From Bacteroidales bacterium (GTDB lineage Bacteria > Bacteroidota > Bacteroidia > Bacteroidales > VadinHA17), in NCBI GenBank assembly GCA_029932855.1, contig JAOZPG010000001.1:1-64000 (forward strand): a stretch of 64,000 nucleotides of DNA. The letters run 5' to 3'. Shown here one piece after another: positions 1 to 18,755 of the stretch. Each line of letters opens with the position of its first letter. Position 1 is the stretch's first letter. The position numbers and the translations under genes were made by a program. Under the pieces are notes generated by a model. It did no database searches and was not told the DNA's origin. It saw nothing but the letters and a program-made list of their open reading frames with translations.

Positions 1-59
1 GTAAATGTAAATATTGGGTGAAAAAGGCTTGGATTTTAGCACAGTTCATTGTTACCTGC
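1..59 (-). repeat. Partial attC-like cassette end, cut by the window edge
   Basis: Bases 51-59 read GTTACCTGC, the exact reverse complement of GCAGGTAAC at 1251-1259 on the far side of the esterase gene. In integron cassettes the first bases of a cassette and the start of its own attC site are complementary in this way. Read on the minus strand, the esterase gene would be followed by a core site GGTAAC and the start of an attC. The rest of that site lies outside the window, so its fold cannot be judged. The assignment is inference from the matched ends. Confidence 0.4.
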
Positions 60-62
60 TGG

Positions 63-1208
63 CTATTCAATTTTTATTATTTTACCCATTCTTGATATTC
101 CATCCATTTTGATTTTCACAAAGTAAGTTCCAGTTGGCAGAGATTTAATGTCAAGTTCAGATTGGTTTTTCACTGTTAAAACTTTTTCTCCTAAAATTGT
201 AAATAATGAAATTTCTAAAATTTGATAATTTATTTCAGAATATATTCTTAATAAACCGTTTGTTGGATTTGGATATATGGTAACACTATTCTTTTCAGTA
301 ATTTTATTATTTATTGATGAAGAATTGCAGTTAAGTGAGTGTTGTTGAAAGAAAGACCACATTAAATCAGTCGCATTTATATAAGTAGAACCACCAACAC
401 CAGGCCAAGAATGTCCTCCGTCTTGTGTTATGTAATAATGAATTTCAGTTCCGCAATCACAATCTGTCCATTTTGTTAAAGTGTATTGAGTATTATTAAT
501 AATTGTATCATTCAAGATATTACAAGAATTATTAGTTGCCCATACATTCATGATTGAATCTAACGGGGGATTATAATGATTTGAAGGTCCACTTCCAACA
601 CCCCCATCATAAGGGATATTGGTATCAAGATATGAATGAAAATGAATTAACGGAACAGGACGATTAGGTGTGCAACTTGTCATAGTCATTGAACACTCAA
701 CAGGTGCAATAGCGGCAATTCTATCGGATAACTCACATGCCAACCTGTATGACATAAAGCCACCATTAGACATTCCTGTCGCATAAATACGATTAGTATC
801 TATTGCATAATGATTAATTAATGTATCAAGTAAAGCATCTATAAAACCGACATCATCAACATTTGAACTACTTGCAAAACCACAACACCAACCTGCATTC
901 CAAGAACTAATATTAAAATAACCACCCTTTATTCCTTCTGGATATACAACAATAAAATTTTCAGCATCAGCTTTTATGCTTAACTGCGAAATATTTTCCA
1001 TAGTGTAAGCATTTCCTGCTCCACCGTGCATAGCAATTATCAAAGGTAAATCCGTAGTTCCAGTATAACCTGTTGACAAATGAACAAGATATGTTCTTTC
1101 ATAGCCCCCAAAAGGAATACTATCGTATTGTGCATATGAACATATTGAAGAAATTAATATTATCATTAAGATTAGCCAGTTTTTAAATATTCTATTTTTT
1201 GTCTTCAT
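63..1208 (-). CDS. Secreted PHB-depolymerase/LpqC-type esterase with T9SS sorting domain
   Basis: This 381-residue secreted alpha/beta hydrolase resembles the polyhydroxybutyrate depolymerase/LpqC and feruloyl esterase family. Residues 1-26 form a signal peptide. The catalytic domain runs from about 33 to 295. It has an oxyanion-type HGG (61-63), the nucleophile elbow GMSNGG with Ser147, a probable Asp195 and a probable His266 in GGHSWPG. Several cysteines, including C108-C109, could form disulfides. From about residue 308 a type IX secretion C-terminal domain begins (YPNPTNG), so the protein is exported across the outer membrane and attached to the surface or released. The substrate cannot be read from sequence; esters of plant phenolics or polyesters are family possibilities. 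The gene lies between 9-bp complementary core sites and so appears to be one mobile cassette, in the usual orientation relative to an attC on its 3' side. Confidence 0.85.
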   Translation of the reverse strand: MKTKNRIFKNWLILMIILISSICSYAQYDSIPFGGYERTYLVHLSTGYTGTTDLPLIIAMHGGAGNAYTMENISQLSIKADAENFIVVYPEGIKGGYFNISSWNAGWCCGFASSSNVDDVGFIDALLDTLINHYAIDTNRIYATGMSNGGFMSYRLACELSDRIAAIAPVECSMTMTSCTPNRPVPLIHFHSYLDTNIPYDGGVGSGPSNHYNPPLDSIMNVWATNNSCNILNDTIINNTQYTLTKWTDCDCGTEIHYYITQDGGHSWPGVGGSTYINATDLMWSFFQQHSLNCNSSSINNKITEKNSVTIYPNPTNGLLRIYSEINYQILEISLFTILGEKVLTVKNQSELDIKSLPTGTYFVKIKMDGISRMGKIIKIE

Positions 1209-1250
1209 AAATTCTATATTTTACTTATTCGCATTCTGTTTTCTATGCTT

Positions 1251-1382
1251 GCAGGTAACGGTTTGGCTATGCGTAGTTTGGGATTTTGAAACGATTAACT
1301 TTCAATTTACCATTAATTTTATTTAATGCTAAAAACCTAAATATTAGCACATTACCCAAATTACGTATAGCCTTTGTTAGCG
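1251..1382 (-). repeat. attC-like recombination site (imperfect inverted repeat)
   Basis: The outer core bases are TAAC (1256-1259) and GTTA (1376-1379). Inside them, arms GGCTATGCGTAGTTTGGG (1265-1282) and CCCAAATTACGTATAGCC (1355-1372) pair at 16 of 18 positions; the two mismatches would be G-T wobbles. Spacers between core and arm are 5 and 3 bases, and the central loop is about 72 bases. This is the general layout of integron attC sites: R'' and L'' facing L' and R'. The right core GTTAGCG departs from the classical GTTRRRY consensus at its sixth base, so a canonical attC is not proven. Other repeat families could look similar. Confidence 0.55.
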
Positions 1383-1600
1383 TTTCGTGTTTTATTTCTG
1401 CCTCGTTCTCCGTGCATTGGCAAGGCAAGCTCTTTGACTGGTTTTGGTCGTGTGTCAGCTTGTGCGACCAGACAATGTGCTTGACGGTGCGTTTGCAGAA
1501 CACCCGCTGCTGCGATAGATGTTCCAATAGCCCAAAAAGTTTCGACCAACGAAGTCAGTCCAGTTCTCCAGATTATTTTTACATTTCTTTTATGTTCCAT
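1361..1600 (-). CDS. Small putative membrane protein, ending inside the attC-like site
   Basis: This 79-residue ORF is not recognised as a known family. Its ATG at 1600 is preceded by an AAAGGAG Shine-Dalgarno-like sequence about 7 bases upstream, unusual for this genome. The N-terminal half is basic and then hydrophobic (LVETFWAIGTSIAAAGVL, about residues 19-36), compatible with one membrane helix. The C-terminal half, from about residue 38, is polar and arises from the GC-rich structured segment and the attC-like arm, so it may be junk read-through rather than selected protein. The gene lies 136 bases downstream of the ImmA/IrrE gene on the same strand. It could be the last member of that cassette, or a remnant of a longer gene cut by cassette formation. 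Confidence 0.35.
   Translation of the reverse strand: MEHKRNVKIIWRTGLTSLVETFWAIGTSIAAAGVLQTHRQAHCLVAQADTRPKPVKELALPMHGERGRNKTRNANKGYT
1422..1481. repeat. Structured GC-rich segment, related to 4321-4387
   Basis: This segment is richer in G and C than its surroundings. It contains the words AAGGCAA (1422), AGCTCTTT (1428), GTGTGTCAG (1450) and AATGTGCT (1474). The same four words occur in the same order and strand at 4321, 4334, 4363 and 4380, with different spacing. TGGTCG (1446-1451) can pair with CGACCA (1465-1470), and a CAAGC/GCTTG pair encloses it. The two copies sit near the two ends of the 3-kb cassette-like unit. Function is unknown: structural DNA, a small RNA or a terminal module of the cassette are all possible. 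Confidence 0.45.
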
Positions 1601-1736
1601 ATTTGTCTCCTTTCTTTGTTTTAATTTTAGCAAACTTGTTAAAAATTTAATTCCAATTAATGTTAATACTAAAAGAGCTAAAGGAACATAACTACCGCAG
1701 CTTGAGATGCCTACCCCTAAGGATATCTTGAATTTC

Positions 1737-2540
1737 TTACTTTTCCCATATCACGCTTATTATCGTTTTATATTGTTTTGTTGGGATACAATATTCATAA
1801 AAATCAGAATCTTCATCATATTTACCTAACTCACACCATGTTGACTTGCTAATTTCTTGAGCTTTTTCTGTTCCAGTGTATATAAAATCGTAATCTGAAT
1901 TAATATATTCTAATGCAACAGAATCGCTTGGCGGTGGTATTTTTGTACATTCTTTAATTCGGTATCTCCAACTTGAAGATTTATCCCAATTCCTTACTAC
2001 ACCATTATGAATATACACAATCATAAGAGGATGAATATCTAAATTCACACACCGAATTAATGCCGATGAAATACTAGTTTTAAATCTTTTAGATAAATAC
2101 TTGACCAACTCTGGTGAAAAGGTATTCCCTTTTGTTTCTGCATAAAATAATTGTTCTGGCATTAATAATTCTGAAGCAAAATCATTAGCTTCCCATTCTT
2201 GCAATCCTTTCTTTAATTGGTTTTCAGTATTTTTAAACCAATTAAGAGTATTCGAATTTTCATTATGCACTTCCATTTTATCATGCATTAAAAAATGACC
2301 AACTTCATGTGCAATAGTGAAACGTTTTTTTGACTCATAAGGAATTTCTGAGTTTACTTTAATTAGAGTTTTAGATTTTCCACGTACTATTTTTCCATCT
2401 GAATTATCGAGCTTTTCTTCAACTAATATAGCTCCTAATCCTGAAACGAAAAATTTCATAGGTAAATCTGTTATTTCATCAAATCCTATTTCTTCTAATA
2501 ATTTTTTTGCCCTTAAACTGCCTTTACAATTCTTCATCAT
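1737..2540 (-). CDS. ImmA/IrrE-family metallo-endopeptidase (M78)
   Basis: This is a 267-residue zinc metallopeptidase of the ImmA/IrrE (DUF955) family. These intracellular proteases cleave a partner repressor or inhibitor in response to stress. HEVGH (residues 78-82) provides two zinc ligands and the catalytic glutamate. E117, in EWEANDFASELLMP, is the expected third ligand; this is the family's diagnostic ANxFAxxLLMP motif. The 80-residue C-terminal part is not recognised. The gene overlaps the upstream 136-residue ORF by 17 bases, so the two are translationally coupled, and together with the sigma-like gene they form a three-gene operon. The likely job is to remove a regulator encoded in the same operon. 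That role is inferred from neighbours, since no classical Xre-type repressor is present. Confidence 0.85.
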   Translation of the reverse strand: MMKNCKGSLRAKKLLEEIGFDEITDLPMKFFVSGLGAILVEEKLDNSDGKIVRGKSKTLIKVNSEIPYESKKRFTIAHEVGHFLMHDKMEVHNENSNTLNWFKNTENQLKKGLQEWEANDFASELLMPEQLFYAETKGNTFSPELVKYLSKRFKTSISSALIRCVNLDIHPLMIVYIHNGVVRNWDKSSSWRYRIKECTKIPPPSDSVALEYINSDYDFIYTGTEKAQEISKSTWCELGKYDEDSDFYEYCIPTKQYKTIISVIWEK

Positions 2541-2934
2541 TTTCTAAGTTTTCAAGAATTTCAAGAAGATTATGGTCTTTAATAATACTTTTAATTTCAT
2601 CATGAGATAATTTATCTAAATTACGATGCTGAAAAGCAAGTTGATTGGATGCAACAAGGTTACGTAAATAACTTATTGGCTTTTCAATATTTTTATCAAT
2701 TGCTTCTTGAAAATACTTTACTGCCTTTTCTAAAAGCATTTCATCTTTCTGTGAATTCATTTGTCCTTTGATTGAAAATGATATTTTCTTATAGCTTTTA
2801 TCTGCTATTCTTTTTATATCACTCAAATCATAACCACTCTCTTCTAAAAAAGAATCAATAGTAGAACTGTCGCTGTCTTTAATAGAAGATAGTATGAATT
2901 CGTCCATTTTATTTATTAATTCTTTTTTCATCAT
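2524..2934 (-). CDS. Small helical protein of unknown function, coupled to sigma-like and ImmA genes
   Basis: This 136-residue acidic, predicted all-helical protein has no signal peptide, no membrane segment and no recognisable helix-turn-helix. It starts at ATGATG, overlapping the stop of the sigma-like gene by 4 bases (ATGA), and it overlaps the ImmA/IrrE start by 17 bases. Stoichiometric co-translation is therefore expected. Its place between a sigma-like factor and a protease makes it a candidate inhibitor (anti-sigma-like) or adaptor that the protease could cut. This is inference from position only. I do not recognise the family. Confidence 0.7.
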   Translation of the reverse strand: MMKKELINKMDEFILSSIKDSDSSTIDSFLEESGYDLSDIKRIADKSYKKISFSIKGQMNSQKDEMLLEKAVKYFQEAIDKNIEKPISYLRNLVASNQLAFQHRNLDKLSHDEIKSIIKDHNLLEILENLENDEEL

Positions 2935-3527
2935 TTGATATTTTTAATCATTTCCTTTAATGCTGGTAATCTTCTTACTAATCTCTTTTTAATATTTGTC
3001 GCTTCCTGTTCAGTTATCCCATTTTCTTTTGCAATATCTGATCTTTTCATTCCGTGAACAATATATGGTTCAAATAAAAGTAGTTCTTCATCTGATGCTC
3101 CTAATTTCTCAAGAAATTTTAAAGACAATTCAAGTAATTCCTCATAATCTCCATTGTCCTTTGCAGATATTTTACAATCCTCAATATTTGTATTTGATTG
3201 TGCAGTTTTCTCTAATTCTTTCTTTATTGTGTTTGAAATATGACTATCTAGAGAACTAATAACTTGTTCTATAAAATCTGGAAACTCTAATTTATTCCAG
3301 TTTCTACCTCCGTCATTTTTCACAAAGGATAACATTAGTTCACTAATCATATCTTCAACCATAATCCCTCTGAATCCACGATTTAAATCGTATTTGATAT
3401 TAAACTTCGTATTTATTCTGATAATCGCATACTTAATTAATCGTTCATTAAACTCAGGAGTAAACACTTCTTGAACTGCCTTTTGCAATTCAATGTTTGT
3501 TGCTAATATTTTTTCTGTAACCTCCAT
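2931..3527 (-). CDS. Sigma-70-like (ECF-type) regulator
   Basis: This 198-residue protein has the layout of a divergent sigma-70 family factor. Residues about 25-105 resemble region 2, with a VEDMISELMLSFV stretch in place of the usual DLVQE-type helix. Residues about 148-190 resemble region 4, with a helix-turn-helix: GMKRSDIAKENGITEQEA then a basic helix KKRLVRRL. A variable linker joins them. It is the first gene of the operon with the 136-residue protein and the ImmA/IrrE protease. Its start faces an intergenic palindrome at 3559-3575 that could be its own control site. It may instead be a sigma-like DNA-binding protein without polymerase activity. Confidence 0.65.
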   Translation of the reverse strand: MEVTEKILATNIELQKAVQEVFTPEFNERLIKYAIIRINTKFNIKYDLNRGFRGIMVEDMISELMLSFVKNDGGRNWNKLEFPDFIEQVISSLDSHISNTIKKELEKTAQSNTNIEDCKISAKDNGDYEELLELSLKFLEKLGASDEELLLFEPYIVHGMKRSDIAKENGITEQEATNIKKRLVRRLPALKEMIKNIK

Positions 3528-3558
3528 CTATTTATTAATGCTATTTTTTTAAATTTTT

Positions 3559-3575
3559 TTTCCATGTCATGGAAA
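3559..3575. promoter_or_regulatory. Palindromic operator-like site between divergent genes
   Basis: TTTCCATG T CATGGAAA is a perfect 8-bp inverted repeat around one central base. It lies 32 bases upstream of the sigma-like gene and about 52 bases upstream of the HNH gene. Perfect symmetry in an otherwise AT-rich spacer fits binding by a dimeric regulator controlling one or both directions. The cognate protein is unknown. Confidence 0.5.
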
Positions 3576-3627
3576 TTTTCTGGTTTAATTCAGCATAACT
3601 TAATGTAAACATTTAAAACAATAATTT

Positions 3628-3876
3628 ATGTCGTATCAAGAAAAGAAAAAGGAGGTCTGGGATAAAGGCCAAAAGGTTCGAGGGAAAGACCCCGATTTAT
3701 ACCGTAAAGATAAGTTCGGTAATATAATGTATAAACCATCTTATGGCAAAAATTCCGAAATGGGTTGGGAAATTGACCATAGCAAACCTCAATCAAAAGG
3801 TGGAACTGACCACTTAAACAATTTGCAACCAATGAATACCCAAGCAAATCATCAGAAAAGTGATAAGATTTTATAG
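3628..3876 (+). CDS. Small HNH-motif protein
   Basis: This 82-residue protein is rich in lysine and carries an HNH nuclease signature. EIDHSKPQSKGG (residues 48-59) gives the DH metal/catalytic pair, followed by NNLQP (64-68) and NHQKSD (74-79). The compact size is typical of stand-alone HNH domains found in phage and mobile DNA. An N-terminal stretch rich in charged residues could contact nucleic acid. It heads a rightward group of three small genes, divergent from the sigma-like operon. The target is unknown; a nicking or homing role, or a non-catalytic DNA-binding role, are both possible. Confidence 0.8.
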   Translation: MSYQEKKKEVWDKGQKVRGKDPDLYRKDKFGNIMYKPSYGKNSEMGWEIDHSKPQSKGGTDHLNNLQPMNTQANHQKSDKIL

Positions 3877-3934
3877 GATAAGCTTTCAATCCTTTAAGTT
3901 GGGAGCATAATTTTAATTGATAAATACTTAGAAC

Positions 3935-4069
3935 ATGAGTAAAACGTCGACAAGAGTAAGAGATGCCCGAACTGGACAGTTTGTTCCATCTCGAGAAGCT
4001 ACAAGACGACCTGCTACTACTGTCACTGAGAAAGTGAAAGTCGGTCCTACTAAGAAACGTAGCAAGTAA
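3935..4069 (+). CDS. 44-residue basic protein of unknown function
   Basis: The short ORF encodes MSKTSTRVRDARTGQFVPSR followed by a basic, Thr/Lys-rich tail ending KKRSK. It has a high content of Arg and Lys and no hydrophobic core, so it is probably disordered or bound to nucleic acid. Proteins with a VRDA-TG-FV pattern of this length occur widely as hypothetical small proteins, which supports it as a real gene, but no function is known to me. It starts 58 bases after the HNH gene and 57 bases before the zinc-ribbon gene. All three are on the same strand ahead of one terminator, so they are probably co-transcribed. Confidence 0.55.
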   Translation: MSKTSTRVRDARTGQFVPSREATRRPATTVTEKVKVGPTKKRSK

Positions 4070-4126
4070 TGTTTTGATATCTAGATTAGATATTAAACGA
4101 GTTTTTAATTTTTTAAATTTTAATTT

Positions 4127-4267
4127 ATGTACACTACAGGTGAAAAACCCGGAAAAGGTCGCTACAAATGCGTAAAATGTGGAGAAGTAATCAGACTTGA
4201 TAATGATTCTGACACACTTCCTCCTTGTCCAAGATGTAACGGTACTAAATGGACTAAAGTTGGTTAA
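4127..4267 (+). CDS. 46-residue zinc-ribbon protein
   Basis: This 46-residue protein has two CxxC knuckles, C15-VK-C18 and C34-PR-C37, separated by 15 residues. This is the spacing of a rubredoxin-like zinc ribbon, with a GEKPGKG lead-in. It probably binds one zinc or iron ion and may contact RNA, DNA or another protein. A clear intrinsic terminator follows within 4 bases of the stop codon, supporting expression from this strand. The long stop-free minus-strand frame across the same region is a shadow. The role is unknown. Confidence 0.65.
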   Translation: MYTTGEKPGKGRYKCVKCGEVIRLDNDSDTLPPCPRCNGTKWTKVG

Positions 4268-4270
4268 CTG

Positions 4271-4309
4271 AAAGGGCTGTTTCATAATTGGGGCAGTCCT
4301 TTTGTTTTT
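4271..4309 (+). terminator. Intrinsic terminator of the HNH/small-protein group
   Basis: AAAGGGCTG (4271-4279) pairs with CAGTCCTTT (4294-4302) over nine positions with one G-U. The run TTTTGTTTTT follows. It lies directly after the zinc-ribbon stop codon. Confidence 0.8.
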
Positions 4310-4320
4310 CGCACCGCGCG

Positions 4321-4391
4321 AAGGCAAAGAAATAGCTCTTTTGCAAGCTGAAGCATCAGCATGTGTGTCAGGGCTTGCAAATGTGCTATTT
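4321..4391. repeat. Structured segment with long imperfect hairpin, related to 1422-1481
   Basis: AAATAGC-TCTT-TTGCAAGC (4330-4348) and GCTTGCAA-ATGT-GCTATTT (4373-4391) pair at 16 of 19 positions across a 24-base loop. The segment shares four ordered words with the one at 1422-1481. It lies about 50 bases from the cassette core site at 4444. Its function is unknown. Confidence 0.45.
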
Positions 4392-4443
4392 GTGCGTTGG
4401 GTTTTCATATCGTTTGTTTATGTTGTTTCGGTCTCATTGCATG

Positions 4444-4531
4444 AACGCTAACGAATGAGTATATGCAATTGCATTTATTTACAATATATATATATTAATT
4501 TCAAGTATAAAAAAACCTGCATAATGTTGGC
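4444..4531 (-). repeat. Possible second attC-like site at the chromosomal junction
   Basis: AACGCTAAC (4444-4452) is the exact complement of GTTAGCGTT at 1376-1384, marking the other end of the 3-kb unit. TATGCA (4462-4467) can pair with TGCATA (4518-4523), and TAAC faces GTTGG (4526-4530). The fold is much weaker than the site at 1251-1382, so this could be a degraded or divergent site. The matched core is the main evidence. Confidence 0.35.
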
Positions 4532-4811
4532 TTTTATACCAGCCTGATATATATGCATTTAAAATATCCAAATGATAATTTTTGCTAATATCAGAAATTA
4601 TTGTGAATCATTTTCTGGCAAATAAAAGGGCGCAACTTTTCAGAAGCCTCCTTTTCACAAATCAAAACCATCTCAAAAAACAAAGCCTGAAAAATGCAGC
4701 ATCACTTCCACAATTACCAATACAATAGCAATCCTAACTAATCTTTAAGCAAAAAGTGGTCTCGATTTATACTCCTTAATCAGAAGTATTTAGGAATATA
4801 TTGAGGAGGTT
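4532..4811. other. AT-rich intergenic stretch, nothing recognised
   Basis: No coding frame with plausible composition, no RNA gene and no clear repeat is seen here. It separates the cassette-like region from the tRNA-Gln terminator. Confidence 0.5.
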
Positions 4812-4852
4812 CAAAAAAGAAAAACCGCCTAAAACCTTGATTTTAAGCGGTT
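4812..4852 (-). terminator. Intrinsic terminator of tRNA-Gln
   Basis: On the minus strand, AACCGC-TTAAAA pairs with TTTTA-GGCGGTT (outer arms at 4847-4852 and 4823-4828). The T-rich run TTTTTCTTTTTT follows. It lies about 26 bases beyond the 3' end of the tRNA. Confidence 0.75.
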
Positions 4853-4877
4853 ATAAAAATTATGAGATTGCTCTCTG

Positions 4878-4950
4878 TTGTCCGACCAGGGCTCGAACCT
4901 GGACTCTTCTGAACCAAAATCAGATGTGTTGCCAATTACACCATCGGACA
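4878..4950 (-). tRNA. tRNA-Gln (anticodon TTG)
   Basis: The minus strand folds into a 73-nucleotide cloverleaf. A 7-bp acceptor stem TGTCCGA/TCGGACA (4944-4950 with 4879-4885) carries discriminator A at 4878. The anticodon stem TCTGA/TCAGA encloses the loop TTTTGGT, giving anticodon TTG for CAA codons. The T arm is CCAGG-TTCGAGC-CCTGG. CCA is not encoded, since the next bases read CAG on the minus strand. It is a single-gene transcript with its own promoter and terminator. Confidence 0.95.
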
Positions 4951-4963
4951 AAAAATGCTCTAT

Positions 4964-4996
4964 CAATTTTATATTTAATCAATAAAGCGGTGCAAA
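4964..4996 (-). promoter_or_regulatory. Bacteroidota-type promoter of tRNA-Gln
   Basis: On the minus strand TTTG (4993-4996) is followed after 21 bases by TAAAATTG (4964-4971), one mismatch from TAnnTTTG. The tRNA begins about 14 bases further on. Confidence 0.5.
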
Positions 4997-5182
4997 TTTA
5001 CATAAAAAACATATTATATACAATTCCCGTCTATAAAATGAAATTCATAATTGCCTTTTATCTTAAACTATAGCCGGTCTGTAAAAAATTAAAGTAAAAA
5101 CATATAAAATATTTTTTCTGTCTTAAATAAATCCTTAATTTCACATTTAAGGTATAATAATAATTTAAATAAGCTTAACGCG

Positions 5183-5611
5183 TTGACAGACAGTGTCGTA
5201 CATCATGATTGGCGGGATAAGACAATCCTTATTGTTGAGGATGACGACTCAAACTACCTTTATTTCAAATCTCTTCTGAAACAAACAAATGCCTGTTTAG
5301 TACGAAAAACCAATGGAAATGAAGCACTTGACTTTATCAAAAATAAAAACAATAAGATAGACCTTATTATTATGGATATCCTTATTCCATTCATTAATGG
5401 AATTGATGTTACACGAGAATCGAAAAAGATAAGAAAAGAAACCCCTGTAATTATTGTCACTGCCTACACTTCCAAAGAAGTAAAACAAAAAAGCTACCTG
5501 TCGGGTTGTGATGAGTATGTTATAAAACCTGTTTTACCGGCTCAATTGCTTGAACTGCTCTCGGAATATTTTCATGAAAGAAAAGATATCCATTCTTATC
5601 AATTATCATAA
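5183..5611 (+). CDS. Single-domain response regulator (CheY-like receiver)
   Basis: This 142-residue protein consists of a receiver domain only. VEDDD (residues 18-22) gives the acidic pocket. D65 in IIMDILIPF is the phospho-acceptor, T93 in VTAY is the switch residue and K115 in IKPV completes the active site. No DNA-binding or enzymatic output domain follows, so it acts by protein contact or in a phosphorelay. The start is TTG; no ATG or GTG exists upstream in frame. No kinase is adjacent; two histidine kinases lie far away at 51-57 kb. The partner is unknown. Confidence 0.85.
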   Translation: MTDSVVHHDWRDKTILIVEDDDSNYLYFKSLLKQTNACLVRKTNGNEALDFIKNKNNKIDLIIMDILIPFINGIDVTRESKKIRKETPVIIVTAYTSKEVKQKSYLSGCDEYVIKPVLPAQLLELLSEYFHERKDIHSYQLS

Positions 5612-5675
5612 TTGAAATTCCATTAAGCTCAGCCGAATTAATTTATTCTTTTTCTCCGATTTTTTTAAATAAGAC

Positions 5676-5706
5676 TTTGCTATTTAAAAACTAATTTATA
5701 TTTTTG
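5676..5706 (+). promoter_or_regulatory. Bacteroidota-type promoter of the trp leader
   Basis: TTTG (5676-5679), 19 bases, then TATTTTTG (5699-5706) match the TTTG-N19-TAnnTTTG consensus at every defined base. Transcription would start near 5710, just before the leader peptide. Confidence 0.7.
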
Positions 5707-5721
5707 ACCCCGATGAAAGCA

Positions 5722-5760
5722 ATGAATCTAAATAATTGGTGGTGGTGCAGTATTAACTGA
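5722..5760 (+). CDS. Tryptophan leader peptide (12 residues, three Trp in a row)
   Basis: The ORF ATG...TGA encodes MNLNNWWWCSIN, with three consecutive TGG codons at 5737-5745. A second in-frame ATG at 5713 would give 15 residues, but it lies at the expected transcription start, so 5722 is preferred. The Trp codons sit immediately before the segments that form alternative hairpins ahead of the TrpB2 gene. This is the arrangement of a ribosome-mediated attenuator: low charged tRNA-Trp stalls translation here. Confidence 0.85.
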   Translation: MNLNNWWWCSIN

Positions 5761-5840
5761 TGCTGTAAACCACGTTGCTATATAGATTCAAAAAAAATAT
5801 TTTAAATCACAAAAGCCCGCTGTTTACAGCGGGCTTTTTT
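5723..5840 (+). promoter_or_regulatory. Tryptophan attenuator: leader stem, antiterminator and terminator
   Basis: Three mutually exclusive pairings are visible. TGAATCTA (5723-5730) pairs perfectly with TAGATTCA (5783-5790), closing the leader domain. GCTGTAAAC (5762-5770) pairs perfectly with GTTTACAGC (5822-5830) as antiterminator. AAAAGCCCGCTG (5811-5822) pairs with CAGCGGGCTTTT (5827-5838) and is followed by a T run as terminator. Antiterminator and terminator share 5822-5830, so only one can form. A ribosome stalled on the Trp codons would melt the leader stem and free 5762-5770, allowing read-through into TrpB2. Confidence 0.85.
5811..5840 (+). terminator. Attenuator terminator hairpin ahead of TrpB2
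   Basis: A 12-bp perfect stem, AAAAGCCCGCTG with CAGCGGGCTTTT, encloses a TTTA loop and is followed by TTTTTT. It lies 35 bases before the TrpB2 start codon, where an ordinary end-of-gene terminator would block that gene, consistent with conditional termination. Confidence 0.9.
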
Positions 5841-5874
5841 ATTGAATTTTATTAAACCGTTAAATACCTGAATC

Positions 5875-7227
5875 ATGGAAAAAACAACAAAGATCTTATT
5901 AAGCGAAAAAGAAATGCCAACCAAATGGTATAATATAATGGCAGACATGCCAAATAAGCCCATGCCTCCTTTAAACCCTAAAACCAGGAAGCCTATCACT
6001 CCTGAAGACCTGGCACCCATATTTCCTATGGAACTGATTAAGCAGGAGGCTTCTACTGAAAGGTATATAGATATCCCCGAAGAAGTGCTTGACCTTTATA
6101 AAACCTACAGGCCTTCTCCAATTATCAGGGCCTATGAACTTGAAAAAAGCCTGGGTACAAAATCAAAGATCTATTATAAGCATGAAGGTCTTAGCTATGC
6201 CGGTTCTCATAAAGCAAATACCGCCATTCCGCAGGCTTATTACAATAAAATGGAAGGGGTAAAGAAAATAACTACCGAAACCGGGGCCGGACAATGGGGA
6301 TCTGCCCTGAGCTATGCATGCCAGCATTTCGGTATTGACCTGGAAGTATATATGGTAAGAATCAGCTATGATCAAAAACCATTTCGGAAAATGATGATGA
6401 ATATCTATAATGCAAATGTATATCCATCGCCCAGCAACAGGACTGAAGCAGGCCGTAAAATACTTGAACAACATCCCGACTCTCCCGGAAGCCTGGGAAT
6501 TGCAATTTCGGAAGCAATGGAAATAGCAGCCAAAAATCCGGATACTAAATATTCTCTTGGCAGTGTATTAAACCATGTATTGCTTCATCAGACAATAATC
6601 GGAGAGGAAGCAATACTGCAAATGGAAAAAGCAGGGGAATTGCCCGACGTCGTTATAGGCTGCTTCGGTGGAGGATCTAATTTTTCAGGTATAGCCTTTC
6701 CGTTCCTGAGGCTAAACCTTAAGGAGGGAAAAAACATTCGCTTAAAAACCATAGAACCGGCATCCTGTCCTAAGCTTACCAGGGGTAAATTTATGTATGA
6801 TTTCGGTGATACTGCCGGTATGACTCCTCTTTTGCCTATGTACACACTTGGTCATAATTTTATCCCGGCAGAAATACATGCAGGAGGACTGAGGTATCAT
6901 GGGGCCGGGGTACTGGCAAGTCAGCTTCTAAAAGACGGACTGATAGAAGCAACTGCTAAATATCAAACGGAATGTTTTGAGGCAGGCATACAATTTGCCC
7001 GTACTGAAGGTGTTATACCGGCTCCCGAGTCAACTTATGCAATTGCAGGAGCCATAGATGAAGCAAGGCAGGCAGATAAGGAAGGGGTATCAAAAACAAT
7101 TTTGTTCAATCTTAGTGGTCATGGTCATCTTGATCTTGCATCATATGAAAAATATCTCAGTGGCAAACTGCAGGATCATGAATTAACGAATGCAGAAATA
7201 GAAACAAGTCTGGCCGAAATATCATAG
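5875..7227 (+). CDS. trpB: Tryptophan synthase beta chain, TrpB2 type (PLP enzyme)
   Basis: This 450-residue PLP enzyme of the TrpB2/TrpB-related class makes L-tryptophan from indole and serine. Against TrpB1 it has the longer N-terminal segment typical of TrpB2. SHKANTA holds the PLP lysine K113. TETGAGQWG (134-142) holds the catalytic E135. GGGSN (265-269) binds the PLP phosphate. SGHGHLD near the C-terminus is also conserved. No trpA or other trp gene is nearby, so it is a stand-alone gene, as is common for TrpB2. The Trp attenuator upstream shows that its expression answers to tryptophan supply, which supports a biosynthetic or indole-salvage role. A bidirectional terminator follows the gene. 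Confidence 0.92.
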   Translation: MEKTTKILLSEKEMPTKWYNIMADMPNKPMPPLNPKTRKPITPEDLAPIFPMELIKQEASTERYIDIPEEVLDLYKTYRPSPIIRAYELEKSLGTKSKIYYKHEGLSYAGSHKANTAIPQAYYNKMEGVKKITTETGAGQWGSALSYACQHFGIDLEVYMVRISYDQKPFRKMMMNIYNANVYPSPSNRTEAGRKILEQHPDSPGSLGIAISEAMEIAAKNPDTKYSLGSVLNHVLLHQTIIGEEAILQMEKAGELPDVVIGCFGGGSNFSGIAFPFLRLNLKEGKNIRLKTIEPASCPKLTRGKFMYDFGDTAGMTPLLPMYTLGHNFIPAEIHAGGLRYHGAGVLASQLLKDGLIEATAKYQTECFEAGIQFARTEGVIPAPESTYAIAGAIDEARQADKEGVSKTILFNLSGHGHLDLASYEKYLSGKLQDHELTNAEIETSLAEIS

Positions 7228-7297: not shown

Positions 7298-10200
7298 TCA
7301 GGGCTTCAAAACACTGCTGCTTATAAACAACTGGTAATATTTATCCAGGGCCTTTTGTATCTTAATATTCAATTCCGTCTGCCCATATGTCCTGGTTGAA
7401 ATATTCAGGTCCTGTAATGCCTGAAGATCCATCCTTCTTTCCATATCCGTACCGGCACCCAGCTCAGGCCTCAGGGAGAAATAATAACTCAGCTGTTTTT
7501 CCAGCTGGGCATAGAAACTTTCTACTTTTTCATTTGCTTTTTCAAAATCCCCTGCCATATAATAAGCTTCTATCAGCCTTGTAGTATATAAATCAAAGCG
7601 CATATTACGCTGTGGGAGTAATTCAAAGCAACGATCAACAACTGCTATAGCCGAGTCTTTCCTGCCCTCTTCAGCCAGGGCTACTGCCAGCCGGGCAAAA
7701 TTACTTCTCATTCTTATAACAGATATGGTACGACGCGTATAATAATCAAGATAAACATCATCCTCATTCATTCTTCCCCACCTGAATTTATTCATGTAAT
7801 TATCATACATCGCATCAATATTTATCCTGCCATACTCAAAAGGCCGTTCATTCTCGTTTTTCACAGGTATTAACCTGTTTGCAAATCCTTCCTGCTGAAA
7901 ATAATGTTCCATCCCCAGGGCATCTTCATGTCCCCCGGCAACGAAATATACCGGTCTTTCCCACTTATTATTAGCCAGCAGGTCGAGTATCATCATCTGG
8001 CTTTTCAATAAATAGTTTCCTTTAAGATTTATTTCAATTTCTGAAAGAGGCTTATCGTCAACTTCCAGTAAATAAGAAGAATTATCATTGAACCTGGCAC
8101 TATCGAAAGGAAGCCTGAGCGTTTTTGCAGGGAAATAATCTATCATATCCCCGTTTTGTATCCTTAGTTGTGTAGCCGGATTATCATCTGCCACAAAATC
8201 CATTACCATCTTCAGGTCCTGGGGCCCTTTAACCCTGTCAAGCACATAAATCTGGTTATTCGTACCGTCGAGATATTTTTCTCGAGGCATTGTAAGAGGC
8301 AAAGGATCAGAATCATATGCCCTCTTTTTCATCTGGTCGATATACCAGTCCGTATTGAAAAGCATTGTATTGACAACTCTCATATCAGTACGTATCCCTT
8401 CAACTTCCTGGGCATACCACAGTGGAAATGTGTCATTATCTCCATTGGTAATTATTATTGAGTTAGGATCACATGAGTTCAGATAGTTGTAAGCAATATC
8501 GCGGGCAGTATAACGTCCTGAGCGATCATGATCATCCCAGTTTTCCATACCCATTATTCCGGGAACAAAAATGAGCAATAATATTCCTGTCATTGGAGCC
8601 CCAATCTTTTCCGGAATAAATTTCTTCAGTCCCTCAACTATTGTTACCACTCCCAGTCCTACCCATATGGCAAATGCATAAAAAGAACCCACATAGGCAT
8701 AATCCCTTTCCCTGGGCTGGTTTGGATACTGGTTGAGGTAAACAACTATTGCAAGCCCTGTTAATATGAACAGAAGGAAAACAACCCAGAAGTCTTTCGG
8801 CGTTTTCTGTACATGAAACAGAAGTCCTAACAACCCGAGAATAAAGGGAAGGAGGTAATATTTATTCCGCCCCTTATTGTTTGCCAAATAATCGGGAAGG
8901 TCTTTCTGGGGGCCAAGCCGCTTTTGATCAAGGAAATTTATGCCACTTATCCAGTTCCCTTTAAGGGGACCACCGTCTCCCTGTATATCATTTTGCCGAC
9001 CTGCAAAATTCCACATAAAATACCTGCCATACATAAAACCCACCTGGTAAGAAAAGAAAAACTTAATATTTTCACCAAAAGTCGGGATTTTCTCTTTTCT
9101 CGCATTTTCACCCGATCCAACAGTTACCTGGCGACCGGAATTTCCTGCCCAGCGTTTATATACATTAACATGTCCGGGCTGGTTGCTGTACATGCGGGGG
9201 AATATGGTTGTAAACCTTGAATCATACTTAACTTTCTGTTTCCTTGTAGAAACAACATATTTACCGTCTTTTGGAATATATGTCGGCTTGCCTTCTACCA
9301 GGCTTTCAGCCGGAGCATTATAATACTGACCTTTTAGCAATGGCCTGTCACCATATTGCTCCCTGTTAATATATGAAAGCAGGGCAAAAACATTTGAAGG
9401 ATCGTTTTCATTTATCGGAGGATCGGCATGAGACCTGATAACTATTAATGAAAAAGAAGAGTATCCTATCAATATCATTGTAACAGCCAGGAAAATAGTG
9501 TTAAGCATTACCCTGTTCCTGAGGGCAAGGTAATATACCAGCCATACTAACCCTCCCGCAATAATCAGTCCCAAAAAAACTGATGAAGCCATAAATGGTA
9601 TTCCGGCCAATATCAGGGCCAGGCTGCCTACTATGGTGGTTATTACCGGATCATCCTTCCAGTGTGTAAGATAAATCCCTCCGATAAGAAGGCCTATGAG
9701 CAACAGTAGATGGAGCAGAAAACCAAAATTATATGGCATCCCCAGGACATTCACAAAAAACAGTTCTGCCTGTGCAGATACCTGAAATACTCCCAGTATT
9801 ATACCATACATCACTATGGCCAGTATAACAAAAGAAATTACAGAAGTTATTATAATCCCTTTAATATCAACAGTATCATATTTCTTAAAGTAATAGACAA
9901 AAATTATTGCAGGAATAGCCAGGAGGTTAAGAAGATGAATGCCGATTGAAAGGCCCATAAGATAGGCAATAAGAATAATCCATTTATCAGCTCCTTCTTC
10001 ATTTGCTACATTCTCCCATTTTAGTATAGCCCAAAAAACCAAAGCTGTAAAAAGCGAAGATGTTGCATAAACTTCCCCCTCGACTGCAGAGAACCAGAAT
10101 GTATCTGAAAACATATAAGCAAAGGCCCCTACCAATCCCGCAAATACCACGCTAAGAGCCTGACCAAGACTTATGTTTTTACTTGCACCTACCAGTTTCC

Positions 10201-10507
10201 TTGCCAAATGAACAATGGTCCAGTACAAAAACATTATTGTAAGAGCACTGGCAAGAGCTGAAAAAGCATTTATCATCTTAGCAGCATTGCTCACATCGCT
10301 GCCGGCAAAAAGTGTAGCTACTCTTCCTAATAATAAGAATAAAGGAGCTCCGGGAGGATGTCCAACTTCAAGTTTAAAGGCAGTTGCTATATATTCTCCG
10401 CAATCCCATAAACTGGCAGTAGGTTCAATTGTTAATAAAAACACTATGGCAGCTACTAAGAAGCTAAACCAACCCATAAATAGATTCAAAGACCTGAAAT
10501 GTTTCAC
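7298..10507 (-). CDS. DUF2723 membrane glycosyltransferase-like protein (GT117/TMEM260 relative)
   Basis: This 1069-residue protein has an N-terminal membrane domain of many helices (about residues 10-370 and 540-670) and a long soluble C-terminal part. It matches DUF2723, a Bacteroidota-rich family related to the GT-C-fold O-mannosyltransferase TMEM260 (CAZy GT117). EPTASLWDCGEY (28-39) lies in the first extracytoplasmic loop, where GT-C enzymes carry their catalytic acidic residues; D35 or E38 are candidates. VGHPPGAP (48-55) is a family motif. The C-terminal segment (about 950-1050) looks TPR-like. A role in transferring sugar from a lipid carrier to exported proteins is a family inference. 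It is a single-gene unit on its strand. Confidence 0.8.
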   Translation of the reverse strand: MKHFRSLNLFMGWFSFLVAAIVFLLTIEPTASLWDCGEYIATAFKLEVGHPPGAPLFLLLGRVATLFAGSDVSNAAKMINAFSALASALTIMFLYWTIVHLARKLVGASKNISLGQALSVVFAGLVGAFAYMFSDTFWFSAVEGEVYATSSLFTALVFWAILKWENVANEEGADKWIILIAYLMGLSIGIHLLNLLAIPAIIFVYYFKKYDTVDIKGIIITSVISFVILAIVMYGIILGVFQVSAQAELFFVNVLGMPYNFGFLLHLLLLIGLLIGGIYLTHWKDDPVITTIVGSLALILAGIPFMASSVFLGLIIAGGLVWLVYYLALRNRVMLNTIFLAVTMILIGYSSFSLIVIRSHADPPINENDPSNVFALLSYINREQYGDRPLLKGQYYNAPAESLVEGKPTYIPKDGKYVVSTRKQKVKYDSRFTTIFPRMYSNQPGHVNVYKRWAGNSGRQVTVGSGENARKEKIPTFGENIKFFFSYQVGFMYGRYFMWNFAGRQNDIQGDGGPLKGNWISGINFLDQKRLGPQKDLPDYLANNKGRNKYYLLPFILGLLGLLFHVQKTPKDFWVVFLLFILTGLAIVVYLNQYPNQPRERDYAYVGSFYAFAIWVGLGVVTIVEGLKKFIPEKIGAPMTGILLLIFVPGIMGMENWDDHDRSGRYTARDIAYNYLNSCDPNSIIITNGDNDTFPLWYAQEVEGIRTDMRVVNTMLFNTDWYIDQMKKRAYDSDPLPLTMPREKYLDGTNNQIYVLDRVKGPQDLKMVMDFVADDNPATQLRIQNGDMIDYFPAKTLRLPFDSARFNDNSSYLLEVDDKPLSEIEINLKGNYLLKSQMMILDLLANNKWERPVYFVAGGHEDALGMEHYFQQEGFANRLIPVKNENERPFEYGRINIDAMYDNYMNKFRWGRMNEDDVYLDYYTRRTISVIRMRSNFARLAVALAEEGRKDSAIAVVDRCFELLPQRNMRFDLYTTRLIEAYYMAGDFEKANEKVESFYAQLEKQLSYYFSLRPELGAGTDMERRMDLQALQDLNISTRTYGQTELNIKIQKALDKYYQLFISSSVLKP

Positions 10508-10637
10508 GCTATATATTTTTGATAAAATACTGAAGTATATTTATAAATTCTTTTTTCATAATCACGACGCGAATTTACTATTTTTCCGCGCGTAAAAAGA
10601 CTATTTTTGATAAAAGAGAACGTATACAGAACTGAAG

Positions 10638-10982
10638 ATGGCAAAAAAGAAAAGAGACAGGATTAATGTGGTTTACTCAACAGATCCTGATTACCTATAC
10701 GAACATGAAGAAAACATTGAGGCAATAAGTCTTTCGCCTTCAGAACAATTGTTGTATATATCTCTCGATCGTAAAGGGAGAAAAGGGAAAGTGATAACAC
10801 TGATAAATGGCTTCCGGGGTACACAAAATGATTTAAAAAAGCTTGAAAAGAAGCTAAAATCTTTGTGCGGAACGGGAGGAACATCAAAAAATGGTGACAT
10901 ACTCATACAAGGAGACTTCAGGGACAGGATAATAGAAGTACTGAAAAATGAAGGTTTTAAAGTAAAAAGAAAAGGCGGATAA
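10638..10982 (+). CDS. SUI1/YciH family translation factor
   Basis: This 114-residue protein is a bacterial eIF1/SUI1 homologue. The basic RKGRKGKVITLI stretch (residues 45-56) and the LCGTGGTSKNGDILIQGD block (75-92) are the SUI1 signature, which in eukaryotes contacts the ribosomal P site. Bacterial YciH is thought to influence start-codon fidelity or translation under stress. The first 40 residues are charged and variable. It stands alone, divergent from the DUF2723 gene, with a TATTTTTG -7 element at 10602-10609 but a weak -33 element. Confidence 0.88.
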   Translation: MAKKKRDRINVVYSTDPDYLYEHEENIEAISLSPSEQLLYISLDRKGRKGKVITLINGFRGTQNDLKKLEKKLKSLCGTGGTSKNGDILIQGDFRDRIIEVLKNEGFKVKRKGG

Positions 10983-11016
10983 AAAGCAAATGCCCAAAGA
11001 GACATAATTAGAATTA

Positions 11017-13893
11017 ATGTTAATCCATAAAAGATATACCAGCATTTTATTAATACTGTGGTTCACAACATCAGCTTTTTCACAGTATTATGAAAGCGGA
11101 CAGGATCCTGCTTTCCTTAAATGGAAACAGATACATACTGAACATTTTCGGCTTATCTTCCCTGAAAGCTTTATACAAGAAGGATTAAGACTGGCAAATA
11201 TGCTTGAATATGCATATACCCTTGTTCCTAATACCCTGAATCACTCACCTCGAAAAATCCCGGTTATTGTTCATAATTACTCAGCCCGCAGTAATGGCTT
11301 TGTTGCCTGGGCACCAAAAAGAATGGAATTATACCCTATACCTGCAGCAGATTCCTGGCCACAGGATGAACTGGAACAGCTTGTGCTTCATGAACTAAGG
11401 CATGTTGTACAACTCGACAAACTAAATAATGGCTTTAGCAAAGGGCTTTCAATAGTATTCGGGGAACAATTGGTTGGTGCCCTGTCGGCAATGCTTCCCA
11501 TGTGGTTTCTTGAAGGAGATGCTGTGCTATCCGAAACCACCTTGTCAAAAAGCGGCCGCGGCAGGCTTCCCTCATTTGAGATGGAATTAAGAGCTCTTTC
11601 TGTTGAACAGGATTCCGTATATAAATACGATAAAACAGTTTTTGGATCGTATAAAGATAATATTCCAAGCTATTATAACTCAGGCTACCAGGTAGTTAGC
11701 TTTACACAAGCTAAATACGGTACGAAATTGTGGCAGGATGCACTGAATAAAACCGGCAGGCAGCCATATACGCTGAATCCTGTAAGCCTGAGCCTAAAAA
11801 GAAATACCGGTTTTACTAAAAAGAAGCTCTTTGAGACCAGCCTTAAGGAACTTCATGATCTCTGGACAATACAGGATAATAAAATAAGTACTACAGCTTT
11901 TTCAACAATTACCTATAAACCCCATAAAAATTATACCAGTTACCGTTTCCCCCAATATATAAGCGACAGCACTCTTATAGCTGAAAAATCAGGCATAGAT
12001 CAGCTTCACAGGATTGTTATAGTCAATAAGAATGGCCATGAGGAAGCAATACATACACCGGGTTTCTATTCCCCTGTAAGATTTTCATATTCAAGTAATT
12101 CTCTGGTATGGGCCGAAAATTATTCAGATCCCAGGTGGGAAAATCGCAGTTACTCAATAATAAAAAAGCTTGATCTCTTAAATGGTAAAGAAAGCACACT
12201 TGGCAAAAAAACCCGCTATTTTTCACCTGTATTATCCGGTGATGGTTTAAAAACAGCATGCATAGAAGCCGGCCTTGCCAATAAGATGTCGCTTGTTATC
12301 CTCGACACAGAAAAAGGGGGAAAACTCGATACTTATTCAATTCCCGGGAATAATTCCCTGCATATGCCCGAATGGACAGATGATGGAAAGCTTATTGTTT
12401 TGCTTGTTAATGAAAAAGGGAAAAGCATCATGGAGCTTAACCCTGAATCGGGAAAATGGACTGAATTATTAGCTCCTTCATTTTACGACATTCAAAAAAT
12501 CATAGCCTGGAAAGAATATATTATTTATCACTCTACTTACTCCGGAATTGACAATATTTATGCATTAAACAGGCTCACAGGAGAAAAATTTCAGGTAACA
12601 TCTTCCCGCTTTGGGGCACGTTATCCATGCCTGTCGCCTGCAAAAACCAAGCTTGCCTACTCAGATTATTCATCTTCGGGATTCAACCTTGTTGAAATAG
12701 AGCTTGATCCAGGAAGCTGGAAACCACTTGACAGGGTTGAAGATCAATCATTGAAAACTTATAAAACTCTCCAGGAACAACAAACAGGAAGCTTTGATAT
12801 TACCGAAACACCTGACAGTGCTTATATTATCAGGCCATATCGTAAAGCCGGAAATCTTTTTAGCTTTCACAGCTGGATGCCTTTTTACTTCGATTATGAT
12901 AATTTCTCACTTGAGGAAGTTTCTGTTACAGCCGGTGCAACAATATTATCGCAAAACAGGCTAAGCACAGCAGTAAGTTCACTGGCTTATTCATATAAAG
13001 ACGGTGAACACTTTTTTATTAGCCGCTTTACTTATAAAGGATGGTACCCCGTTATAGATATTGACTATAAATACGGGGGTAAGCCTATAATAAGAAAGCC
13101 TTCCCCTGTAAGTGAACCCATGGAATACTCTTTTCAATCGGTTTTTAATACAAATATTTATATTCCTCTTCATCTTACCCGTAATAAATTCATACGTGGA
13201 CTATATCCCTCAATAAATATTCAATACAATAACTCATACATCTATAATGAGGCTGAAGAATATTACGAGATCGGCGAATTATTAACAGGAGCACGCCTGT
13301 ATTTCTATAACTACCAGAAATTATCATTAAGAGATATTAAGCCCCGCCTGGGAATTGTTTCCGATCTGTACTTCAGGACTGCACCTTTTAATAAAGAAAC
13401 TTTTGGAAATTCGGGTTCAGCCCTTCTTGGAGTTTATCTGCCTGGTATTGCCAGGCATCACAGTATTTACTTACAGGCAGGAACAGAAAAACAAAAAACA
13501 TCCAAATATTTGTATTATAACAGGCTCAGTTTTCCACGCGGATATCAAAGCAGGGTATCGGAAAAGCTTAAAGTATTGAAACTGGATTATTATTTCCCAT
13601 TATTTTATCCTGAAATAAATATTGCATCCATTATTTATATACCACGATTTTATGCAAATGCTTTTTATGATCGTGCCCTGGGGGAAGGAAATTATAACCT
13701 TAACGGGGGTTATGTTGAAGAAGAACAGCTTTTTTCAAGTCTTGGGACAAAGATCTTTATGGATTTTTTCTTCCTGCGCATTCCTTTTCCATTTAATATA
13801 GGGCTACGCTATTCTTATATGCCCGAACTTCAGGAACAAGCTTTTAAAATTTCTTTTGGAGTTGATTTTAACGGCTTCCAGATAAATCGTTAA
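11017..13893 (+). CDS. Secreted gluzincin-like protein with beta-propeller and C-terminal barrel
   Basis: This 958-residue exported protein has a signal peptide (residues 1-22, cut near AFSQ). An N-terminal peptidase-like domain carries HELRH (125-129) and WFLEGD (163-168, E166), the zinc ligands of a gluzincin (peptidase MA-like) fold. The middle (about 310-560) has PD40/TolB-like propeller blades. The last about 330 residues are rich in alternating aromatic and polar strands and end in a short strand, as in outer-membrane beta barrels. A surface or outer-membrane protease or pseudo-protease is inferred; the substrate is unknown. It overlaps the convergent ccsBA gene by 26 bases at the stop codons. 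Confidence 0.7.
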   Translation: MLIHKRYTSILLILWFTTSAFSQYYESGQDPAFLKWKQIHTEHFRLIFPESFIQEGLRLANMLEYAYTLVPNTLNHSPRKIPVIVHNYSARSNGFVAWAPKRMELYPIPAADSWPQDELEQLVLHELRHVVQLDKLNNGFSKGLSIVFGEQLVGALSAMLPMWFLEGDAVLSETTLSKSGRGRLPSFEMELRALSVEQDSVYKYDKTVFGSYKDNIPSYYNSGYQVVSFTQAKYGTKLWQDALNKTGRQPYTLNPVSLSLKRNTGFTKKKLFETSLKELHDLWTIQDNKISTTAFSTITYKPHKNYTSYRFPQYISDSTLIAEKSGIDQLHRIVIVNKNGHEEAIHTPGFYSPVRFSYSSNSLVWAENYSDPRWENRSYSIIKKLDLLNGKESTLGKKTRYFSPVLSGDGLKTACIEAGLANKMSLVILDTEKGGKLDTYSIPGNNSLHMPEWTDDGKLIVLLVNEKGKSIMELNPESGKWTELLAPSFYDIQKIIAWKEYIIYHSTYSGIDNIYALNRLTGEKFQVTSSRFGARYPCLSPAKTKLAYSDYSSSGFNLVEIELDPGSWKPLDRVEDQSLKTYKTLQEQQTGSFDITETPDSAYIIRPYRKAGNLFSFHSWMPFYFDYDNFSLEEVSVTAGATILSQNRLSTAVSSLAYSYKDGEHFFISRFTYKGWYPVIDIDYKYGGKPIIRKPSPVSEPMEYSFQSVFNTNIYIPLHLTRNKFIRGLYPSINIQYNNSYIYNEAEEYYEIGELLTGARLYFYNYQKLSLRDIKPRLGIVSDLYFRTAPFNKETFGNSGSALLGVYLPGIARHHSIYLQAGTEKQKTSKYLYYNRLSFPRGYQSRVSEKLKVLKLDYYFPLFYPEINIASIIYIPRFYANAFYDRALGEGNYNLNGGYVEEEQLFSSLGTKIFMDFFFLRIPFPFNIGLRYSYMPELQEQAFKISFGVDFNGFQINR

Positions 13894-16800: not shown

Positions 16801-16972
16801 TAATAAATGCCAGCAAAATTTCAAACCACCTTGTATTATATACTGCTGCCCTGGCAGCGGCAGGGCCAAAGTCATTTTCAATAAATGTTGCCACTGCCGT
16901 AGAGAAAATCATTGTGAGAATTAAAAATGCCATCCAGGGCATAGAAAACAGAAAAGCGAATATTTTCTTCAT
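13868..16972 (-). CDS. ccsA: Fused cytochrome c synthetase ResB-CcsA (CcsBA)
   Basis: This 1034-residue fusion of system II cytochrome c maturation proteins exports heme and attaches it to CxxCH apocytochromes. The N-terminal ResB half has about four membrane helices around a large periplasmic domain. The C-terminal CcsA half (about 720-1030) carries the heme-handling WWD-like block near residue 929 (WGRYWGWDPKETWA) and conserved histidines in HAPWSNGYE, HMSWMNPE, HVSVITASYG and SHMRY. Fused forms of this length are common in Bacteroidota. No cytochrome or nitrite reductase gene is adjacent. A TTTG-N17-TATTTTTG promoter lies just upstream. Confidence 0.92.
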   Translation of the reverse strand: MKKIFAFLFSMPWMAFLILTMIFSTAVATFIENDFGPAAARAAVYNTRWFEILLAFIIINLAGNMIKGKLYRKKKLSIFLFHFAFLFMFIGAAVTRYVSYEGTMHIREGSSSGQIISSGSFLYVSVDNGSERTELFRGTNFIPGKKNKLSLRLKSGDEKLKLKLLKYVPNAERSVMADPSGEAYISLVSLGINGRQSHSLKTKQSERISGLLVGFNNKEAAFNIINKEEGLFFISESEVLLMDMTSNEQSTLAAGELHPFLKRRLYTIDKLQLVLTAYLNKGREDWFTMPDDGKLRPDAIILKAKYKSQSQTLTCFGSKGRKGNIYEYEMEGVKISLSYGSRWIQLPFSLYLKDFKLERYPGSNSPASYASEVMLIDDENGIKQSYNIFMNNILNYKGFRFFQSSYDTDEKGTILSVNHDAAGTAITYFGYFLMTMGMLLSIFNKNSRFMQLARSGSKQGGKGSVSMILLIIVFGSFSSSLNARDVDDKMTELINTEQAEMLSHILVQDQGGRIKPLQSMASDVLRKVSKKESLSGLNPVQVVMGMYLFPEYWQRTDMIKVSNGDIRKLLGISDSYASYIDFIDMNSRRGYKLAGPVQQAYKKKPGSRTKFDQEIMKVDERFNVCYMVFSGSLLKVFPAKEDADNKWYQPGNVSAMTAFEDSVFVSEVFNLYRNSLLSGGEKNKSDEIIEEIITFQQVMAGELYPAEAKISLEIFYNKANIFKKLSIFYGAVGFVLLILMLVSILGDKSFADRLIKAGSLFLLLGFLLHTFGLGLRWYISGHAPWSNGYESMIYIAWAAMLSGLIFVRKSTFALVAASLLAALTLLIAHMSWMNPEITNLVPVLKSYWLTIHVSVITASYGFLGTAMVLGLFSLILYAGKTADNHKKLQSQIVVLSDINEMALILGVYFISIGTFLGAVWANESWGRYWGWDPKETWAMITALVYIFISHMRYIPGLRGHFALNLASVIGFFSVLMTYFGVNYYLAGLHSYAQGDAVPVPAFVYYSLAALALIIFLAWYKERKYSGFNDLSGSR

Positions 16973-16994
16973 GTTTAATATCTGGTTAAGCCTG

Positions 16995-17023
16995 CAAAAA
17001 TAAACATATTAGGAATTACCAAA
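16995..17023 (-). promoter_or_regulatory. Bacteroidota-type promoter of ccsBA
   Basis: On the minus strand TTTG (17020-17023) is followed after 17 bases by TATTTTTG (16995-17002). The ccsBA start codon is 22 bases downstream. The spacer is 2 bases shorter than the commonest value. Confidence 0.45.
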
Positions 17024-17098
17024 GTACTAAACGTATTTTATCGGAGATTATTTATTATTTGGCAATAATATATTCGTATCCCGGAATTGATCTGGCTA

Positions 17099-18517: not shown

Positions 18518-18755
18518 ATTTAATTTTTTAATCCAATATATATTCTGCTTTTCTAATAAAAAGAATAAGCCATCTCTAATCCAAAAACAAATAATAATGT
18601 ATGCGAATAAGCAAAAAAATACTATCTATCAATAGCCTTCGCAGATTTCCGGGAGGAATAAACCGCCTTTAATATATAGCAAATCTACCTGGCAACAAAC
18701 CAATTAAGTTACTAAAACTCCATTGGTAAGAATCGAATAAATAATATGGTTTACT

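Follow-up and report, generated by a model that had tools for sequence, protein, structure and literature searches.

The left end of the window analysed here (the first 64 kb of contig C33 of a genome, G000, with 2.6 Mb in 44 contigs) raises the question whether two adjacent gene units with complementary ends are gene cassettes of an integron, as the original prediction proposed, and which enzyme could move them. The four 9-bp words on which that proposal was based are indeed present: GTTACCTGC (51-59) and GCAGGTAAC (1251-1259) enclose an esterase unit, while GTTAGCGTT (1376-1384) and AACGCTAAC (4444-4452) enclose a unit of 3 kb. Taken alone, they are weak evidence and stay within chance, since 9-bp inverted pairs are common in AT-rich DNA: positions 1-4500 hold 99 exact inverted pairs of 9 bp separated by 1 kb or more vs. 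a mean of 67 in mononucleotide shuffles, and four pairs starting with GTT vs. about one. The words gain meaning from a covarying palindrome that lies between them (1254-1381). The objection anticipated at the outset, i.e. random words without unit boundaries, is justified for the words by themselves, which nevertheless bound a real structure. As read by eye, the ends of the 3-kb unit pair beyond nine bases (GTTAGCGTT-TCGTG / CATG-AACGCTAAC); its right edge at 4452 abuts an attI-like site and not a second palindrome. Window position 1 is also the first base of the contig, so that the array is truncated there, and with it the far site of the esterase unit (Table 1).

Table 1. Features predicted at the left end of the window
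Feature	Position	Strand	Basis
Cut-off right end of a candidate cassette recombination site	1-59	+	sequence; model match very weak
Left boundary of the esterase unit, GTTACCTGC	51-59	+	sequence
Esterase unit, second from the attI-like site, with self-complementary ends	51-1259	-	words; G038 match
T9SS-secreted PHB-depolymerase-like esterase, CDS	63-1208	-	protein family searches
attC-like site	1251-1384	+	covariance model, covariation, fold
Parts of the attC-like site	AAC 1257-1259; inner arms 1265-1282 and 1355-1372; GTT 1376-1378
First unit after the attI-like site, 3077 bp, ends GTTAGCGTT / AACGCTAAC	1376-4452	-
CapP-like ImmA/IrrE metallopeptidase (Peptidase_M78)	1737-2540	-	Pfam E 1.9e-15; PADLOC capP E 2.4e-57
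CapH-like protein, weak	2524-2934	-	PADLOC capH E 5e-5
Sigma-70-like regulator	2931-3527	-	NCBIfam TIGR02937 E 2.3e-8, below its cut-off
HNH endonuclease, divergent from the CapP/CapH-like operon	3628-3876	+	Pfam HNH E 2.4e-5
Small ORF, 44 aa	3935-4069	+
Zinc-ribbon protein, 46 aa	4127-4267	+	Pfam DUF1451 E 4.2e-9
attI-like site, homologous to the C40 attI; no adjoining recombinase gene	4453-4512	-	alignment score
tRNA-Gln(TTG), first chromosomal gene past the array	4877-4950	-	ARAGORN

A covariance search of the region, proposed as a check, recovered an attC-like site: a palindrome of about 125 bp with an 18-bp covarying stem. With a model built here from 15 sequences, one of them the window copy itself, it scores 139 bits (E 1.6e-30) on the plus strand as opposed to 30 bits on the minus strand. 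The plus strand is the one modelled as folded and corresponds to the bottom strand of the cassettes. The 15 aligned copies are built alike: AAC is followed by a short spacer and the first arm of 18 bp; a conserved interior (about 70 nt) separates this from the second arm, after which come TTT and GTT. Compensatory two-sided changes affect 11 of the 24 pairs. All 15 rows retain two G.T pairs, whose conservation is strand-specific according to both covariation and model scores; the loop differs in length between copies, and unpaired spacers adjoin the AAC and the GTT. In folding stability the modelled strand exceeds its complement only slightly (27/39 cases). When compared with the R-box consensus RYYYAAC / GTTRRRY, position 4 is A or G in 87/92 cases and positions 5 and 6 are often pyrimidines, the GTT being invariant by selection. 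As in attC, the imperfect palindrome is completed by the first bases of the cassette itself. Rfam contains no family for this element. In the same genome, sequence 1240-1400 of the window has copies on contigs C14 (92%) and C2 (77%); related palindromes were retrieved by blastn from 15 of 118 genomes, and matches to the covariance model were found in 202 of 393 relatives and in 107 of 238 genomes across the phylum.

In other genomes the palindromes often stand in head-to-tail arrays, where each stretch between one site and the next opens with GTT-N6 and closes with N6-AAC, the two N6 being complementary. All six variable bases are complementary in 34 of 55 adjacent pairs vs. 0.9% of 2970 mismatched pairs, which bears out the circular-form logic that had been read from the unit ends in the window. 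The pairing of unit ends extends to about 13 bp and includes a G.T pair and a constant bulge or mismatch; hence the whole folded site would have two arms with unpaired spacers between them, as attC has, the likeness being to its architecture of R box, L box and spacer. ORFs of such units run opposite to the modelled strand, i.e. in cassette orientation, in 60 of 62 cases, in line with the prediction that the esterase and the ImmA operon point toward their attC. A scan of 80 recombinase loci placed all palindrome matches but two on the predicted strand. Units with perfect ends range from about 0.5 (0.54) to 12.7 kb, so that a multi-gene cassette of 3 kb, originally considered unusually large, is ordinary in this system. 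Cargo in the sampled cassettes includes McrBC, a type IIG restriction-methylation protein, a helicase-HNH protein, PII proteins and cyclic-nucleotide-binding regulators. The 12.7-kb unit (L088, G085:C5, 4514-17184) has ends complementary at 9/9 positions and carries metal-efflux genes (P-type ATPase, CusB/HlyD-like), which share one orientation except for one small ORF. The last unit of another cassette array contains a 540-aa gene (L085, G306:C178, 3443-5065, minus strand).

The comparison with related strains that had been suggested revealed variable presence at this locus. In G002, from the same genus, other genes occupy the position of the array beside tRNA-Gln. In G038, which belongs to another genus, a sequence on contig C309 matches 778-1259 at 86% and stops exactly at the predicted boundary 1259, beyond which unrelated DNA stands in place of the attC. 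One esterase cassette is thus found in two contexts with the junction at GTT. Distant blastn searches of plasmids retrieved no relative of window 1-4700.

As to the enzyme, a tyrosine recombinase of about 385 aa adjoins the array starts in other genomes, and the genome under study has its own copy on contig C40, where the gene is succeeded in turn by an attI-like site, a cassette of the thioredoxin family whose ends are complementary, and one short site. The recombinase gene is located on the coding strand of the cassettes, directly upstream of the attI-like site where the first cassette begins. Between its stop codon and the first cassette lies a site ending in GTT, often TATAAACNAGTT; in cultured strains the two ends of this first cassette are complementary and a palindrome follows its end. 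An attI beside the recombinase gene, with the first cassette starting there, is a feature of integrons, and it was found in C40, in relatives and in cultured strains. The order of recombinase, attI and cassettes recurs in all these (the cultured strains include Winogradskyella ursingii, Algoriphagus ornithinivorans and Zunongwangia mangrovi), as well as in a closed chromosome, in plasmids, and in the gut defence arrays known as rAID, a described recombinase-associated array (PMC12247911). On the closed chromosome (G702), a recombinase with 63.5% identity to that of C40 is accompanied by its attI and by about 11 cassettes in succession. The platform also has a mobile version: on the Chryseobacterium sp. 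SNU WT5 plasmid (L316), an array (10140-18960) is situated downstream of a recombinase that NCBI annotates as 'site-specific tyrosine recombinase/integron integrase'. Contig ends lie within 600 bp of the recombinase on its downstream side in 13 of 30 cases, as compared with 2 of 30 on its upstream side. This would agree with variable cassettes at attI, though repeats alone could break assemblies as well.

All catalytic residues of the recombinase are conserved. The nearest NCBIfam model is XerA, while TIGR02249 (IntI) matches in two pieces with about 200 bits, below its cut-off of 265, and the IntI-specific insert is absent. In the tree, the array recombinase falls outside the IntI clade (support of the latter, 100). 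Its AlphaFold model (pLDDT 82.6, pTM 0.51) is closest to XerA, then to IntI. The C40 gene itself contains about 100 N's in its N-terminal part (G000 C40:2862-2961, L108), flanked on both sides by the same short sequence; the gap is probably a scaffolding error. Among relatives, recombinase and palindrome co-occur (OR 3.5, p 9e-9, Fisher test ignoring kinship, which overstates independence because the genomes are related), and the association loses significance within the own family (p 0.09). Co-occurrence is imperfect: in 96 genomes the palindrome is present but no recombinase match is strong, and 46 show the opposite. This may be due to the draft state of genomes and to other attC subtypes.

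Taken together, these observations make it very probable that the window units are mobile gene cassettes of an integron-like Bacteroidota platform served by a non-IntI recombinase, their recombination being inferred. Of the original term 'integron gene cassettes', the cassette part holds, whereas 'integron' fails on one defining point: the own genome has no integrase over the IntI cut-off, and the recombinase beside such arrays lies outside the IntI clade and lacks the insert. In the mechanism we propose, the recombinase would bind the folded single-stranded bottom strand of attC, and attI as ordinary double-stranded DNA; exchange would take place at GTT, and circular cassettes could in this way be inserted beside attI, as in integrons but without IntI.

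One competing reading is that of a classical integron or CALIN, whose cassettes are moved by a true IntI encoded elsewhere, the XerA-like recombinase being incidental. The GTT core, hairpin sites and head-to-tail cassettes are as in integrons, and true IntI genes above the cut-off do exist in 5 of 393 genomes of the order. Against this, the search for an IntI-type tyrosine integrase, advised together with the original prediction, gave no protein over the TIGR02249 cut-off in the own genome; no palindrome was found near the five IntI genes, and across the phylum it is a non-IntI recombinase that stands directly at the attI-like site, with contigs ending just downstream. On the absence of IntI from the own genome, its rarity in the order and the lack of palindromes near it, we rejected IntI as the driver; this reading is largely refuted and in our opinion very unlikely. 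We consider hardly credible that the palindromes are non-autonomous mobile repeats of the MITE or REP kind, which came to lie between genes by chance. Such elements would also be multi-copy and palindromic with a conserved interior, and many copies do lie near contig ends; yet repeats of this kind explain neither why the ends of the intervening DNA are complementary to each other and differ from those of their neighbours, nor the one-way orientation of the genes, nor the attI and the recombinase at the array start.

Another alternative concerns the window only and is compatible with the cassette platform: the system may be real elsewhere, the window array being a degenerate remnant or an ectopic insertion that has lost recombination. 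We give this somewhat less than an even chance. Neither a recombinase nor a remnant of one was found in window 1-6000, the site adjoins tRNA-Gln, and the esterase cassette of G038 has no recombinase nearby either. On the other hand, the window attC is intact and has the top score of the whole search (this copy also seeded the model), the own genome possesses a recombinase with its own attI on C40, and the attI-like sequence of the window is conserved: the DNA to the right of 4452 aligns to the C40 attI with a score of 71 vs. a maximum of 49 among 2000 random stretches of the window. The window cassettes were probably placed in trans by the C40 recombinase or left behind after the loss of a local recombinase gene.

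The 3-kb cassette, with its CapP-like, weakly CapH-like and sigma-like proteins and its divergent HNH endonuclease, may plausibly be a regulated defence module, judging from these family matches. A second repeat family, on the same strand, lies a short way inside each end of this cassette (about 1385-1500 and 4310-4440), with shared words such as AAGGCAA, GTGTGTCAG, AATGTGCT and GTGCGTT and a hairpin at 4330-4391; 4323-4440 is matched at 80-87% in six other genomes and 1378-1484 in one. Outside the array, two tryptophan leader families match positions 5693-5842, upstream of a trpB-like gene (5875-7227), with scores below their thresholds (RF00513, 35 bits at a cut-off of 41; RF01692, 30 bits at a cut-off of 49), and a trp attenuator preceding this tryptophan synthase beta-like gene is probable.

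Integrons are thought to be nearly absent from Bacteroidota, IntegronFinder 2 having reported a single complete integron in Bacteroidetes proper (PMC9024848). We think it likely that the platform described here is a second, independent integron class across the phylum, with a XerA-derived recombinase, its own attI and structured attC, which captures cassettes of 0.5-12.7 kb, including whole multi-gene defence and metal-resistance modules, and of which the gut rAID is a specialised offshoot. If so, almost half of the sampled phylum genomes carry cassette sites of a parallel system invisible to IntI-based searches; the spread of defence and metal-resistance modules as cassettes would be explained, rAID arrays would receive a mechanism, and a second natural case of recombination of folded single-stranded DNA would be at hand for comparison with IntI. 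The system can be tested directly in cultured strains, such as W. ursingii and A. ornithinivorans. The literature searched on integrons, CALIN, integron-like tyrosine recombinases and rAID (the last as described in PMC12247911) gave no account of an integron-like system in Bacteroidota that combines this recombinase with such attI and attC sites.

In comparison with known systems, the platform shares with integrons the circular-form logic of the cassette ends, hairpin attC with a spacer by the GTT, attI by the recombinase gene and co-oriented cassettes. It differs in that the recombinase is outside the IntI clade and without the IntI insert, that its gene is on the cassette strand upstream of attI, that cassettes reach 12.7 kb, and that the pairing arm is about 13 bp, whereas in integrons the pairing arm of attC is 7 bp. 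With the chromosome dimer recombinases XerA, XerC and XerD it has the catalytic fold in common, the closest solved structures being archaeal XerA (5hxy, 4a8e) and then IntI (2a3v); unlike them, the array recombinase has an extra N-terminal domain of about 100 aa. The own XerC and XerD are encoded by separate genes, and XerC/D-type sequences form a separate, fully supported clade.

Another close relation is to rAID, in the description of which integrons and attC are not mentioned (PMC12247911). In the tree, the clade containing the C40 recombinase includes the rAID recombinases from Bacteroides and Parabacteroides plasmids as nested members, so by this nesting a recombinase of rAID type stands upstream of the arrays studied here. 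In both systems the array lies downstream of the recombinase, its units are co-oriented, and motifs recur in the intergenic regions (for rAID, according to PMC12247911). The units of these gut plasmid arrays, which hold immunity genes, also read as self-complementary at their ends, as seen by eye in a B. ovatus plasmid. While the immunity genes of rAID are short orphans and its sites are short, with a core of TTA type, the window and most of the sampled cassettes carry general cargo (restriction systems, metal efflux, esterase, CapP/CapH-like proteins), and their sites are mostly longer, with a GTT core. The gut rAID appears to be one branch of the integron-like system.
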